In this document: positions 8,673-15,083 of the stretch, one piece after another | How positions within the stretch are numbered: the first letter of the stretch is position 1 | Layout of the letters: each line of letters begins with the position of its first letter | Source: a bacterium | GTDB lineage: Bacteria > DYJV01 > JALVYZ01 | DNA length: 21,898 nt | NCBI GenBank assembly: GCA_027037705.1 | Contig: JALVYZ010000357.1 | Coordinates: forward strand, 469 to 22,366 | Reading direction: 5' to 3' | Notes under the pieces: model-generated | Told to the model about the DNA's origin: nothing | Seen by the model: the letters and a program-made list of their open reading frames with translations, nothing else | Databases searched by the model: none | Translations under genes and position numbers: made by a program

Positions 8673-9380
8673 ATGAAAAGAAAAGATGGAAGAACTTTTA
8701 ATATGATTAGACCTGTAAGAATTACAAAAGACTATACTATGTATGCTGAAGGATCAATATTAATTGAAATGGGTGAAACAAAAGTTATATGTAATGTTTC
8801 TGTTGAAGAGAAAGTACCACCTTTTTTAAAAGGGTCCGGCACTGGTTGGATAACGGCTGAATATTCAATGTTGCCAAGAGCAACTGAACAAAGGAAAATT
8901 AGAGATGTTGTTAAAGGTAGAATTGATGGCAGAACTCATGAGATTCAAAGATTAATAGGAAGGTCATTGCGATCTGTAATAGATTTGTCTTCTCTTGGAG
9001 AAAAAACTCTCTGGGTAGATTGTGATGTAATTCAGGCTGATGGCGGGACAAGGACAGCATCAATAACAGGAGCATACATTGCTACATGCCTTGCTATTAA
9101 AAAACTAAATTTAAAACATAATCCTATAAAAGACTATCTTGCAGCTATAAGTGTTGGAATAATAAATGGTCAACCAATGCTTGATTTAAATTATGAAGAA
9201 GACTCACAAGCTGAAGTAGATATGAATTTTGTAATTACAGGAAAAGGAGAATTTGTTGAAATTCAGGGTACTGGAGAAAAAAGGAGCTTTACAGAAAAAG
9301 AATTTGAAATATTAAAGGATCTTGCAAAAAAGGGAGTTCAGAAATTAATAGAACTTCAAAAGAGAATTTTAGAAAAATGA
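8673..9380 (+). CDS. rph: Ribonuclease PH
   Basis: 235 residues, full family length. RNase PH is the phosphorolytic 3'-to-5' exonuclease that trims tRNA and other RNA 3' ends, working as a hexamer in the cytoplasm. The RNase PH signatures are all present: [12 protein letters not shown] at the N-terminus, [26 protein letters not shown] with the phosphate-contacting arginine, [20 protein letters not shown], and [18 protein letters not shown] near the C-terminus. GAGGG lies five bases before the ATG. The stop overlaps the next ATG as ATGA, a common rph-rdgB arrangement. Confidence 0.97.
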
Positions 9381-10687
9381 AAGAAAAGATAATTTTTGCA
9401 ACAAAAAATAAAGGCAAATTAAAGGAATTTAAAGAATTATTGATTGAAAACAATTTAAAATACGAAGTATTATCTTTAAATGACTTAGAAGATGTGCCAG
9501 AAATTATAGAGAATGGAAAAACTTTTAAAGAAAATGCATATATTAAAGCAAAAAGGATTTTTGATAAGTATCATTTGCCAGTTATAGCAGATGATTCAGG
9601 TATAATAGCAGAAGTTTTAGGTGACAGACCTGGAGTCTATTCAGCAAGATTTGCTGGAGAAAATGCAACTGATGATGAAAATAACAGAAAATTAATAAAT
9701 GAATTGAAAGATAAAGCAAATAAAAGAGCTTATTTTCAATGTGTGTTATGTTATATTAATTCTATAGGAGATGTTTTTTTTACTGATGGTAAGTGCTATG
9801 GAGAGATTATAGATACTCCAAAAGGAGAAAATGGTTTTGGATATGATCCTATTTTTTTTATACCTGAATTTAATAAAACAATAGCAGAACTTGACTCTAA
9901 TACTAAAAATAAAATAAGCCATAGAGGAAAAGCATTTAAAGAACTTGTAAAAATTTTAAAATCTGAGATAAAACTGTCATTTGTTATCCCTGTATATAAT
10001 GAAGAAGAAAATTTAAAGTTATTACATGAAAAAATAAGAAAAGTTATTGATGAAAAATTAAAATTTAATTGTGAGATAATATTTGTTGATGATGGTAGTT
10101 TTGATAATAGTTTAAAAATATTAAAAGAACTCAAAAAGGATGATAATGAAATAAAAATAATTTCATTTGAAGAAAATAAAGGACAATCAGCTGCAATGGC
10201 AGCAGGTTTTTCTTATGCAAAAGGAGGATTAACCGCTACTTTGGATGCTGATCTTCAAAATGATCCTGATGATATTCCAATGATGTTGCAATATATTGAT
10301 GAATATGATGTTGTATGTGGAATAAGAGCTAAAAGGCATGATAATTTTATTAGAAAAATAAGTTCTAAAATTGGAAATAATATTAGAAATTGGGTCACAA
10401 AAGATAATATAGTTGATACAGGTTGTTCTCTAAAAGTCTATCGAACTTATTATTTAAAGAAGATAAAAATGTTTAAAGGTATGCATAGATTTTTGCCAAC
10501 TTTGTTAAAGTTAGAAGGAGCAAAGGTGACTCAAGTTAATGTAAAACATCATCCAAGAAAATATGGTGAATCAAAATATGGTCTTGGCATTGCAAGTAGA
10601 GCAGGAAAAGCATTTATAGACTTACTTGCTGTTAGATGGATGATCTCTCGTCATATTAATTACAAAATAAAGGAACTAATAGAATGA
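9377..10687 (+). CDS. rdgB: Fused RdgB NTP pyrophosphatase and family 2 glycosyltransferase
   Basis: 436 residues in one open frame. Residues 1-195 are a complete RdgB/HAM1 protein that removes dITP/XTP from nucleotide pools: [11 protein letters not shown], catalytic DDSG at 72-75, [10 protein letters not shown], and NGFGYDPIF...ISHRGKAF. After a link of two to four residues, 199-436 form a GT2 domain of the dolichyl-phosphate-mannose-synthase type: [30 protein letters not shown], metal-binding DAD at 290-292, and GESKYG near the end. It lacks transmembrane helices. There is no stop, ATG or ribosome site near the junction (about 9955-9980), so the fusion looks real, although a lost single base between two formerly overlapping genes would look the same. 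It overlaps rph and the LABN gene by ATGA. The LABN neighbour suggests that the GT2 part glycosylates a polyprenyl-phosphate or lipid A. Confidence 0.9.
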
Positions 10688-12319: not shown

Positions 12320-12874
12320 ATGAAAAAGGCTATAATAGTGGTTGATATGACAAAAGATAATGTTACGGGAATTTTTGAAAAATTATGTGAGCCAATTATT
12401 CCTGTGATCAATGACTTAACTGAAGTTTTTAGAGAAAACAATTTTCCTGTTATTTTTGCCAATGATAGTTTTTTTGAAGAAGATTTTATCTTTAAAGGTA
12501 AAATGCCACCGCATTCATTAAGATATACAGAAGGAAGTGAAGTTACTGACAAATTAATAGTTAAAGATGGCGATATAATTTTACCCAAAAGAAGGTTTTC
12601 TGCTTTTTTTAAAACAGATCTTGATATGACTCTTAGAACTAAAAAGGTAGAACAGGTTTGTGTATGTGGTATAACATCAACTTTTTGTGTACTTGCTACT
12701 GCTTTTGACGCGTTTTGTAATGATTTTGCAACTGTAATAATTGAAGATGCCACAACTGCACATAAAATTGAATTTCATGAGCAAGTTATGAATTTTTATA
12801 GGAAAAATCCTTTACAGCCTTATTTTGAAATAAAAACCTCAAAACAGATAATAGAGGAGATAGAGAATGTTTAA
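12320..12874 (+). CDS. Isochorismatase-like cysteine hydrolase
   Basis: 184 residues from the start set by AGGAGG. The catalytic triad of the cysteine-hydrolase/isochorismatase superfamily is visible: Asp9 in VVDM, Lys90 in ILPKRRFSAF, and Cys123 in GITSTFCVLATAFDAF. The conserved DA of IEDATTAH follows. This points to an amide or imide hydrolase (nicotinamidase, carbamoylsarcosine- or ureide-type) rather than isochorismatase proper, which commonly lacks the Cys. The usual nicotinamidase metal site DxHxxxH is not seen: the region reads NDSFFEEDF, so nicotinamidase is not favoured. Cytosolic. The 3' end overlaps argJ by eight bases, suggesting co-translation with an arginine-pathway enzyme. 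Confidence 0.85.
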   Translation: MKKAIIVVDMTKDNVTGIFEKLCEPIIPVINDLTEVFRENNFPVIFANDSFFEEDFIFKGKMPPHSLRYTEGSEVTDKLIVKDGDIILPKRRFSAFFKTDLDMTLRTKKVEQVCVCGITSTFCVLATAFDAFCNDFATVIIEDATTAHKIEFHEQVMNFYRKNPLQPYFEIKTSKQIIEEIENV

Positions 12875-14003
12875 TTTTGCATCTGTAAATGCAGAGATTA
12901 AATATAAAGATAGAGATGACCTTGCTATTGTTTATTCTGAAAAGCCTTTTTTTGTGAAAGCTGTATTTACAAAAAATAAATTTAGAGCAGCTCCAGTAAA
13001 TTTTTGTATTGATAGATTAAAAAAAAATAAGAAATTTAATGCTATCATTGTTAATTCTGGAAATGCTAATGCCTGTACAGGAAAGCAGGGATATTTAGAT
13101 TGTGAATTAATTGAGAGAAAATTAAAAGAAGAATTTCAAATTGAAAATGGGATATTAATAGCTTCAACAGGTGTAATTGGAGTAAGGTTACCACTTGAAA
13201 AAATTTGTAAAAAAATATCTATCCTAAAAAAGAATTTATCTTCAGAAAATTACGAAGATTTTGCAAAAGCAATTATGACAACTGATACTGTCCCCAAAAT
13301 TGTAGAATATAAAAATGGTAAATTTAGAATATTTGGAATAGCAAAAGGTGCAGGGATGATCCATCCAAATATGGCTACAATGCTTGCATTCATTTTTACA
13401 AATGCAAATATTGAGCTAAAAAAAATAGATAAAGCTTTCAAAGATGTAATTGATAGAACTTTTAATTCTATTAGTGTTGATGGGGATACAAGTACTAATG
13501 ATTCTGTCTTTTTATCTATTTTACCAGAAGAAGATGTTGAATTTAACGAATTTATAAATGGTTTAAGGTATGTATGTGAAAATTTAGCAAAAAAAATTGT
13601 TGAAGATGGAGAAGGTTCAACAAAATTTATTGAAATTAATGTAATTAATGGAAATAATAAAGAAAAATGTAAACAAATTGCAGAAACAATAGCAAAATCA
13701 CCACTTGTTAAAACAGCTTTTTTTGGGAATGATCCTAATTGGGGAAGAATAATCTGCGCTATTGGATATTCAAATGTTGATTTTAATCCTGAAAATATTA
13801 TTTTAACAATTGGTCAACATAAAGTTTTTGAAAATGGTATGGAATCTCCTGAATTTTCAGAAGAGAAAGTATATGAATATCTTAAAAATAATAGGAATGT
13901 TTCTTTAACTGTTAATCTAAATGAAGGAAAAGCATCTTGGAAATATTATACATGTGATTTTTCATATGAATATGTAAAGATTAATGCTGAATATAGGACA
14001 TAA
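12867..14003 (+). CDS. argJ: Glutamate N-acetyltransferase / amino-acid acetyltransferase (ArgJ)
   Basis: 378 residues, slightly short at the N-terminus for the family. ArgJ transfers acetyl from N-acetylornithine to glutamate, recycling the acetyl group of arginine synthesis; some also use acetyl-CoA. VNSGNANACTG, KGAGMIHPNMATML, FNSISVDGDTSTND, GNDPNWGRI and the C-terminal YVKINAEYRT are all intact. The precursor cleaves itself before Thr171 (NMA/TML), which becomes the catalytic nucleophile of the beta chain. Whether it is mono- or bifunctional cannot be read from the sequence. No other arg gene is in the window. GAGGAG within the preceding gene serves as ribosome site. The stop codon is directly followed by the 14007 repeat array. 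Confidence 0.96.
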   Translation: MFNFASVNAEIKYKDRDDLAIVYSEKPFFVKAVFTKNKFRAAPVNFCIDRLKKNKKFNAIIVNSGNANACTGKQGYLDCELIERKLKEEFQIENGILIASTGVIGVRLPLEKICKKISILKKNLSSENYEDFAKAIMTTDTVPKIVEYKNGKFRIFGIAKGAGMIHPNMATMLAFIFTNANIELKKIDKAFKDVIDRTFNSISVDGDTSTNDSVFLSILPEEDVEFNEFINGLRYVCENLAKKIVEDGEGSTKFIEINVINGNNKEKCKQIAETIAKSPLVKTAFFGNDPNWGRIICAIGYSNVDFNPENIILTIGQHKVFENGMESPEFSEEKVYEYLKNNRNVSLTVNLNEGKASWKYYTCDFSYEYVKINAEYRT

Positions 14004-14006
14004 AAT

Positions 14007-14041
14007 AAGGAGGAAGGCTGAAGGTTGAAGGAGGAAGGTAG
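14007..14041. repeat. Five 7-bp tandem units, AAGGNNG
   Basis: Units at 14007, 14014, 14021, 14028 and 14035 read AAGGAGG, AAGGCTG, AAGGTTG, AAGGAGG, AAGGTAG. The AAGG core and final G are invariant. It begins three bases after the argJ stop codon. Confidence 0.8.
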
Positions 14042-14044
14042 TAG

Positions 14045-14116
14045 ATGAGTAGAAGCGAAGATGCGAAGATGCTAAATTATGTAAATGAGAAAAAGGGTAA
14101 ATGCGTAGATGCGAAA
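14045..14116. repeat. Nine degenerate 8-bp tandem units (left arm), consensus ATGCGWAR
   Basis: In exact 8-bp register from 14045 there are nine units such as ATGAGTAG, ATGCGAAG, ATGCGTAG. Position 7 is A in all nine, position 5 is G in eight, position 1 is A in eight. The units are the reverse complement of those in the right array (14148-14251), so the two arrays face each other across a 31-bp AT-rich spacer. Confidence 0.75.
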
Positions 14117-14147
14117 AAAAAGATACAGTATATTCTAATTGATGTAT

Positions 14148-14251
14148 GAACTCATTAACAAATATACACATTTACTCATTTACGCATACACGCATATACT
14201 CATTATCGCATATATGCATCCACGCATTTACACATATACTTATTAACGAGT
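14148..14251. repeat. Thirteen degenerate 8-bp tandem units (right arm), consensus WTACNCAT
   Basis: Thirteen consecutive octamers in register (for example TTACTCAT 14172, TTACGCAT 14180, ACACGCAT 14188, CCACGCAT 14220). The last base is T in all, position 7 is A in 12, position 4 is C in 12, position 6 is C in 10. ACGCATTTAC (14222-14231) is a perfect 10-bp complement of GTAAATGCGT (14097-14106) in the left arm, so a long imperfect hairpin is possible. There is no spacer between units, so this is not a CRISPR. Confidence 0.8.
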
Positions 14252-14300
14252 TATGGACCATGAATCCCGAGTCCCGAACCACAAAAAAGGGAGTTAAATA
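14252..14300. other. Rest of the argJ-mazG gap: 7-bp repeat pair and mazG ribosome site
   Basis: ATCCCGA (14264-14270) and GTCCCGA (14271-14277) form a direct 7-bp repeat, GC-richer than the surroundings. GGGAG at 14289-14293 serves the mazG ATG at 14301. No promoter for mazG is recognised. Confidence 0.5.
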
Positions 14301-15083
14301 ATGGAGATAAAAAATCTTGTTGATGTTATAAAAAAATTGAGAAGTCCTGAGGGATGTCCTTGGGATAGAAAACAAACTCCAGAATCTTTAATCCCACAAT
14401 TATTGGAGGAAGTTTATGAACTTATTGATGCTATATATGAAAAAGATAGTGAAAAGATTAAAGAAGAGTTAGGAGATGTTTTACTTCATATAGTTTTTCA
14501 GGCAGTTTTTTTAGAAGAGAAAAATCAATTTACAATTGAAGATGTGATCAAAGAGATTGTTGATAAAATTATTAGAAGACATCCTCATGTTTTTGCAAAT
14601 AAAAAGATAAATTCAATTGAAGAATTGAATATAACATGGGAAAAAATTAAAGCGAAAGAGAAGGGTAAGGAAAATAGAGGAATTTTAGATGGAATCCCAA
14701 ATTCTTTGCCTGCTTTAATGTATGCTTATAAAGTTACAAAAAAGGTTCAAAAAGTAGGTTTTGATTGGCCTGATTTAGCAAATCTTTTTGAAAAGTTAAA
14801 TGAAGAATTTTTAGAATTTGAAGAAGCATTAATATCTAAAAATAAAAAATCAATTGAAGAAGAATTTGGAGATATATTGTTTATGCTTGTTAATTTAGCA
14901 AGAAAGTTAAAAATTAATCCAGAAGAAGCATTAATGAAAACAAATAAAAAATTTATAAAAAGGTTTAAATTTATAGAAGAAAATTTGAAAAAAGAAAATT
15001 TAGAATTTAATGAGGTTGATTTAGAGTATATGGATAAGTTATGGGAAAAAGCAAAACTTTTAGAAAAATCTGTGAAAAAATGA
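14301..15083 (+). CDS. mazG: Nucleoside triphosphate pyrophosphohydrolase MazG
   Basis: 260 residues, the two-domain full-length MazG. It hydrolyses NTPs and dNTPs to monophosphates and pyrophosphate, cleaning nucleotide pools. The N-terminal opening GCPWDRKQTPESL, the metal motif EEVYE (Glu36, Glu37, Glu40) with EELGD (Glu55, Glu56, Asp59), and RRHPHVF are present. The second MazG half repeats the helical pattern (EEFLEFEEA...EEFGDILF), with VGFDWPD between the halves. It has its own good ribosome site and stands downstream of the repeat arrays. With RdgB it gives the window two independent NTP-cleansing enzymes. Confidence 0.96.
   Translation: MEIKNLVDVIKKLRSPEGCPWDRKQTPESLIPQLLEEVYELIDAIYEKDSEKIKEELGDVLLHIVFQAVFLEEKNQFTIEDVIKEIVDKIIRRHPHVFANKKINSIEELNITWEKIKAKEKGKENRGILDGIPNSLPALMYAYKVTKKVQKVGFDWPDLANLFEKLNEEFLEFEEALISKNKKSIEEEFGDILFMLVNLARKLKINPEEALMKTNKKFIKRFKFIEENLKKENLEFNEVDLEYMDKLWEKAKLLEKSVKK

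Follow-up and report, generated by a model that had tools for sequence, protein, structure and literature searches.

What keeps two facing arrays of degenerate 8-bp repeats in strict phase when their individual units have diverged so widely? The question is raised by the gap between argJ and mazG in the window, the 21,898-nucleotide stretch of bacterial DNA analysed here, in which an earlier note had described two opposed octad arrays and had suggested that the constraint lies on spacing and on a few positions rather than on simple slippage. Its coordinates, octad phase and unit counts hold on re-measurement. The left arm is composed of nine phased ATGCGWAR-type octads (14045-14116) and the right arm of twelve to thirteen phased WTACNCAT-type octads (14148-14251), the latter type being the reverse complement of ATGNGTAW; in both arms each unit matches the consensus at 5-8 of 8 positions, and the thirteenth right-arm unit, TAACGAGT, is a marginal match. 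The two opposed arms are separated by a 31-bp spacer (14117-14147) with a core, GATACAGTATATTCTAATTGAYGTATRAACTCAT, which starts at 14122, extends into the right arm and is conserved in the window and in up to seven other copies. A perfect 10-bp complement between the arms was also verified: GTAAATGCGT at 14097-14106 reads identically on the opposite strand at 14222-14231.

All features of the locus are given on the forward strand. Domain matches on the flanking open reading frames place the arrays, as previously claimed, between argJ (12867-14003; PF01960, E 7e-143) and mazG (14301-15083; PF03819, E 2e-38), the latter preceded by a probable Shine-Dalgarno motif, AAGGGAG, recognised from the sequence at 14287-14293. 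Two further arrays, absent from the earlier note, adjoin the octads: a 7-bp G-rich GAAGGNN array (GGAGGAAGGCTGAAGGTTGAAGGAGGAAGG) at 14007-14040 and, at 14252-14279, a 7-bp C-rich CCCGANN-type array (TATGGAC CATGAAT CCCGAGT CCCGAAC) belonging to a downstream-side word family. The octad phase stands clearly above background: lag-8 identity over 70 bp reached 0.69 and 0.67 in the two arms and 0.51 in the next best place of the window, while among 300 controls generated from the window by a first-order Markov model the mean maximum was 0.52 and the highest 0.63. Elsewhere in the window, positions 9377-10687 hold a single 436-aa open reading frame, named by eye, which appears to join an RdgB/HAM1-type nucleotide pyrophosphatase and a GT2-type glycosyltransferase.

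What the earlier note missed is that the array belongs to a dispersed element, of which it is a single copy, and that the polarity of this element is locked to transcription. In the window's genome (a draft of 2.05 Mb in 496 contigs, 93% complete), a three-octad pattern with up to two mismatches gave 96 matches and the whole element used as a DNA query gave 72, corresponding by our own count to approximately 46 distinct intergenic places. The refuting conditions named in the earlier note, an absence of further copies and equally long phased runs in shuffled controls, therefore do not hold. The statistics reported here derive from 375 kb of contigs, picked partly for carrying arrays, genome-wide counts being taken from the searches, and their basis is one species, one draft genome and home-made gene calls. 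These contigs hold 22 loci with both arms and 13 with a single array, and in several copies the right arm stands alone. Alignment of the copies revealed that the spacer GATACAGTATATTCTAATTGAYGTATRAACTCAT is common to eight of them; a ninth row (C62c), which is a contig-end overlap with C394, was left out. The left-arm order of unit types, ATGCGTAG AAGCGNNA ATGCGAAG ATGCG, is kept in roughly nine loci, not all of which have the spacer, and the unit order of the window's left arm recurs in copies C338, C453, C305a and C305b. Since eight copies have both spacer and unit order in common, the array is to be regarded as a single dispersed element, with divergence of its units occurring in place, and the strict octad phase is largely inherited, the array having been copied as a block before its units diverged. 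The end of contig C62 (15460-15521) and the start of C394 overlap within an element copy, indicating that the assembly broke there and that copies at contig ends may be counted twice. No octads were found in G001, the sole other genome of the same order examined, in which mazG is present (55% identity) in a different gene context.

Recent slippage as the sole cause of the arrays can be discarded, given that neighbouring units resemble each other no more than distant units do (5.39 vs 5.39 of 8) and that unit order is common to different loci. The suggested constraint on spacing and a few positions was supported by comparing substitutions by unit position in five homologous copies: variable columns amounted to 16/65 at unit positions 1, 2, 3 and 5 and to 34/68 at positions 4, 6, 7 and 8 (P = 0.004, the pairwise counts between copies not being independent). 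The A and T at left-arm positions 1-2 do not change between copies, while position 4 is the most variable (46% in the left arm, 53% in the right). Since position 4 would supply a G-C pair, this pattern is the opposite of what a constraint on pair strength would produce.

The proposal that the arms could form a long hairpin stood in part. The window element has a predicted minimum free energy (MFE) of -50.1 kcal/mol (z -5.6), with 0/200 shuffles as low, and the fold of the whole argJ-mazG gap has a z of -3.15; a strong hairpin can therefore form, but the exact pairing of arm to arm is not conserved. Arm duplexes within a locus (-30.0 kcal/mol) are not more stable than duplexes of arms swapped between loci (-30.9 kcal/mol; P = 0.79), shuffling the unit order inside the arms leaves the mean MFE unchanged (-30.3 vs -30.0), and the lengths of left and right arms are uncorrelated (rho 0.14). 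Exact pairing is consequently not maintained, and the strength of the hairpin derives from the complementary vocabularies of the two arms. A fine-tuned hairpin as the main constraint is rejected by the arm swaps and unit-order shuffles, the results being consistent with a constraint that acts on word and phase and allows pairing in any register.

The element has a regular orientation. The ATGCG-arm precedes the CGCAT-arm in 22/22 two-armed copies, and the arms differ at their variable positions, the favoured words being ATGCGAAA, ATGCGTAG and ATGCGAAG in the left arm and, once reverse-complemented, ATGCGTAA, ATGCGTAT and ATGCGTTA in the right arm, so that every element has a direction. When arm vocabulary was scored with a leave-one-out procedure, this direction coincided with that of the flanking genes in 22/22 cases, two of them with small margins (0.5 and 1.8 log units). 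Arrays occur in 24/84 co-directional gaps and in 1/33 convergent or divergent gaps (P = 0.002). On contig C394, two elements are oppositely oriented, each aligned with its local genes, which indicates that the reference is transcription rather than replication. The end of the right arm lies at a median of 24 nt, usually 20-24 nt, from the next start codon and beside the Shine-Dalgarno sequence, and on contigs C146, C475, C394 and C62 nearly the entire gap from stop codon to Shine-Dalgarno is occupied by the element. One lone right arm (locus L008) is located between sucC and sucD, as read from the translated flanks, two genes which are as a rule co-transcribed.

The co-directional gaps also hold other phased word families, each nearly restricted to the sense strand and confined to one part of the gap. 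In the upstream part these are GAAGGNN (13 sense vs 1 antisense gaps), GGAGTNN (14 vs 3) and GTTAGTTNAG (9 vs 0), and in the downstream part AATAACNACA (11 vs 0), AACACNN (12 vs 0) and ACGAANN (4 vs 0). In gaps that hold words, GC skew is +0.58 for the upstream half and -0.24 for the downstream half, compared with +0.17 and +0.07 in gaps without. These degenerate phased families, with periods of 6, 7 and 10 bp, follow a strand-locked order, with G-words after the upstream stop and C-words before the downstream start; examples of filled gaps are window positions 14007-14040 and 14252-14279, C305:20040-20383 and C62:5301-5659.

With its phased head-to-tail units within the 6-9 bp range, dispersed and mainly intergenic, the element shows the features of the short tandem repeat class. 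REP, BIME and REPIN sequences are likewise dispersed intergenic inverted repeats, often found between co-transcribed genes and able to form RNA hairpins, and REPINs depend on RAYT transposases. Their arms, however, have no tandem units, whereas here the arms are tandem arrays and no RAYT was found in the genome (93% complete). Among cyanobacterial STRRs, several degenerate tandem heptamer families, reportedly described by Mazel et al. in 1990, are said to be dispersed in the intergenic DNA of one genome. The presence of several dispersed degenerate families in one genome is a likeness, the unit of 7 bp instead of 8 bp a difference, and we know of no STRR described as a paired-arm element with a conserved spacer. 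PMC4692102 cites, as reference 39, the STRR heptanucleotides of Calothrix and other cyanobacteria.

Along with the STRRs, the nearest published parallels are two further heptad systems. The Xanthomonas GGGAATC/(GGGANTN)n and Nostoc GGGGA(C/T)T repeats are degenerate phased heptads with fixed core positions; in Xanthomonas they form more than 180 dispersed intergenic copies per genome, mostly between co-oriented genes, including 70-75 close convergent array pairs per genome, always one per strand (Rehm et al. 2015, PMC4692102). The same convergent arrangement with one array per strand is found here in 22/22 pairs. The Xanthomonas units are nevertheless 7 bp long and carry a G-tract associated with quadruplexes, whereas the ATGCGWAR unit is 8 bp long, AT-rich and without G-tract. 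Moreover, Xanthomonas arrays show no strand preference with respect to genes (30-35% each way) and are sited close to the upstream gene. The octad elements, by contrast, are all in sense (22/22), with the right arm adjoining the next gene. No common spacer is reported for the Xanthomonas arrays (PMC4692102), whereas here one is common to eight copies. The TAACTGA direct repeats of marine Beggiatoaceae, Cyanobacteria and Bacteroidetes, patchy across distant phyla with no known transfer mechanism, are oriented in sense and immediately precede start codons (MacGregor 2015, PMC4679880), a placement which the octad element shares. They are near-exact 7-bp units in 2-6 copies, arranged as single arrays with one inverted repeat in 170 sets, in contrast to the degenerate octads in paired arms described here, and they usually replace the Shine-Dalgarno sequence, which the window-type element keeps beside it. 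With a period of 8 and not 7, the element is not a member of the published STRR, GGGANTN or TAACTGA families; it unites features of GGGANTN and TAACTGA and adds to them an 8-bp unit, a common spacer and complete sense polarity.

An exact scan for three consecutive octads across approximately 85,000 genomes returned 93 stretches from scattered phyla, against a chance expectation of about 0.1 by our own arithmetic, which any tandem repeat would exceed. AGTGAAT heptads with at least 10 matches were found in 5/18 octad-bearing genomes and in 0/59 unselected genomes besides that of the window (P = 0.0004), namely in Oscillatoria SIO1A7 (145 matches), Endomicrobia (79), CSMAG_2929 (45), Paludibacteraceae (16) and a deltaproteobacterium (10). 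Opposed heptad pairs have the same arm order in 9/9 cases in the Oscillatoria and Paludibacteraceae stretches, and several Oscillatoria pairs have a common spacer, GATAATTGGCTTTCTTAACTTTT, and thus the anatomy of the window element with another word; unlike in the window's genome, Oscillatoria pairs are found in convergent and divergent gaps too. The occurrence of AGTGAAN and of the convergent layout in a cyanobacterium and in Paludibacteraceae (Bacteroidales) suggests a common generating process. A broader reading, which we consider unlikely, is that convergent degenerate pairs, with G-words on the left, C-words on the right and a conserved spacer, constitute a general intergenic class across unrelated phyla, made by a shared enzyme or process, with a small shared vocabulary (ATGCGNNN, AGTGAAN, GGGANTN, WWACTCAT) and, in the present genome, a sense-strand grammar filling co-directional gaps.

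In Oscillatoria sp. SIO1A7 (L275, L276, L279, L280, L282), the arms of the convergent AGTGAAN pairs differ in their favoured word, AGTGAAT prevailing in one and AGTGAAA in the other. Paludibacteraceae RGIG4417 (L056, L062, L071, L093) has dispersed, near-identical copies of a two-armed octad element, made up of ATGCGAAAx3, a spacer of about 40 bp and TTTTCGCATx3. Gammaproteobacterial plasmids of Psychrobacter and Klebsiella (L304, L305, L306) bear long, perfect intergenic arrays, (ATACTCAT)n, (TTACTCAT)n and (TAACTCAT)n, in which the right-arm word is undecayed. Two viral contigs (L300 and L303, at about 1170 and 7761) present in succession a stop codon, three ACATGCGT units, a Shine-Dalgarno sequence and a start codon, a position like that in the window's genome; in the viral collection as a whole, eight stretches with ATGCG arrays were found and no family resembling the window element.

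Searches for known identities were negative. In Rfam nothing scored above the gathering threshold, the sub-threshold hits being mir-297 (25.7 vs 90 bits) and ST7-OT4_3; no intrinsic terminator (GC-rich stem followed by a T run) was found in 13850-14400, and no promoter above chance at the element. In the genome, 93% complete, the RAYT/IS200-type transposase domain (Y1_Tnp, PF01797) was absent with positive controls, and no reverse transcriptase was found. The open literature returned no relevant paper on the octad words themselves. A coding function is unlikely, as the 8-bp period shifts the reading frame, and the small open reading frames over the arrays are considered incidental.

The window array belongs to a family of non-coding intercistronic repeats, dispersed and directional, and we tentatively propose, with somewhat less than even confidence, that these act through a transcribed insulating hairpin. 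The molecular function which we infer comprises transcription as intercistronic RNA, a protective or insulating hairpin and retention in one orientation. The element would be transcribed as spacer or leader RNA, and its two arms would zip into an imperfect, register-tolerant hairpin in which short core helices recur at intervals of about 8 nt, separated by loops. Since pairing between such arrays is possible in many registers, conservation would be required of the core word and the 8-nt phase, and not of exact partner units. Such a hairpin might protect the upstream message at its end and insulate it from the ribosome-binding site downstream, perhaps in a manner akin to the REP/BIME elements of enterobacteria, and the element would have spread via DNA copying, with retention in the sense orientation only. 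In favour of this reading we count the approximately 46 places, the spacer and unit order common to eight copies, the fixed arm order and the sense polarity in 22/22 copies, the co-directional gaps, the place at the Shine-Dalgarno sequence, the sucC-sucD arm, the fold (z -5.6), the lower rate of change at core positions and the reversal of orientation with gene direction on C394; against it, the lack of fine-tuning in the pairing, the variability of position 4 and the copies with a right arm only.

The absence of maintained arm pairing in swaps and shuffles would be expected of a neutral or selfish remnant, that is, an old slippage-born octad array, copied around and decaying without function, whose place and polarity mark where it was tolerated. 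The perfect plasmid arrays indicate that arrays of this kind do arise by slippage, no common function is apparent among the flanking genes, and the same gaps hold many further word families, all of which agree with such an origin. We nonetheless hold it to be doubtful, given that substitutions between homologous copies are uneven across unit positions and that sense polarity in 22/22 copies together with Shine-Dalgarno adjacency is hard to obtain without selection or a directional insertion process.

That same sense-locked placement beside the Shine-Dalgarno sequence, along with the lone right arms at several loci, a constraint on word positions rather than on pairing and the published precedent of equally placed TAACTGA repeats (PMC4679880), would suit phased mRNA binding sites, with an RNA-binding protein of S1, cold-shock or CsrA type reading octads upstream of start codons to tune translation. 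However, the arms differ as RNA (AUGCG vs CGCAU), so that a single protein would read one arm only, no such protein was identified, and the downstream genes show no shared function, which makes this account rather improbable. A DNA cruciform element, or a mobile inverted repeat of REPIN type relying on a RAYT (IS200/IS605-type) transposase for its movement, would explain two opposed arms around a spacer, dispersed and intergenic, yet this reading appears highly improbable: the genome, 93% complete, yielded neither a Y1_Tnp domain nor a reverse transcriptase, the arms are tandem arrays and not single short palindromes, and a mobile palindrome is not expected to be sense-locked in 22/22 copies.

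Families of degenerate 7-8-bp repeats abound in scattered groups of bacteria, and their origin and role have been little studied. The octad element provides a clean case: a homologous family with measurable polarity, strict orientation with transcription and a fixed site by the ribosome-binding site, in which the pattern of change between copies separates a constraint on words from a constraint on pairing.
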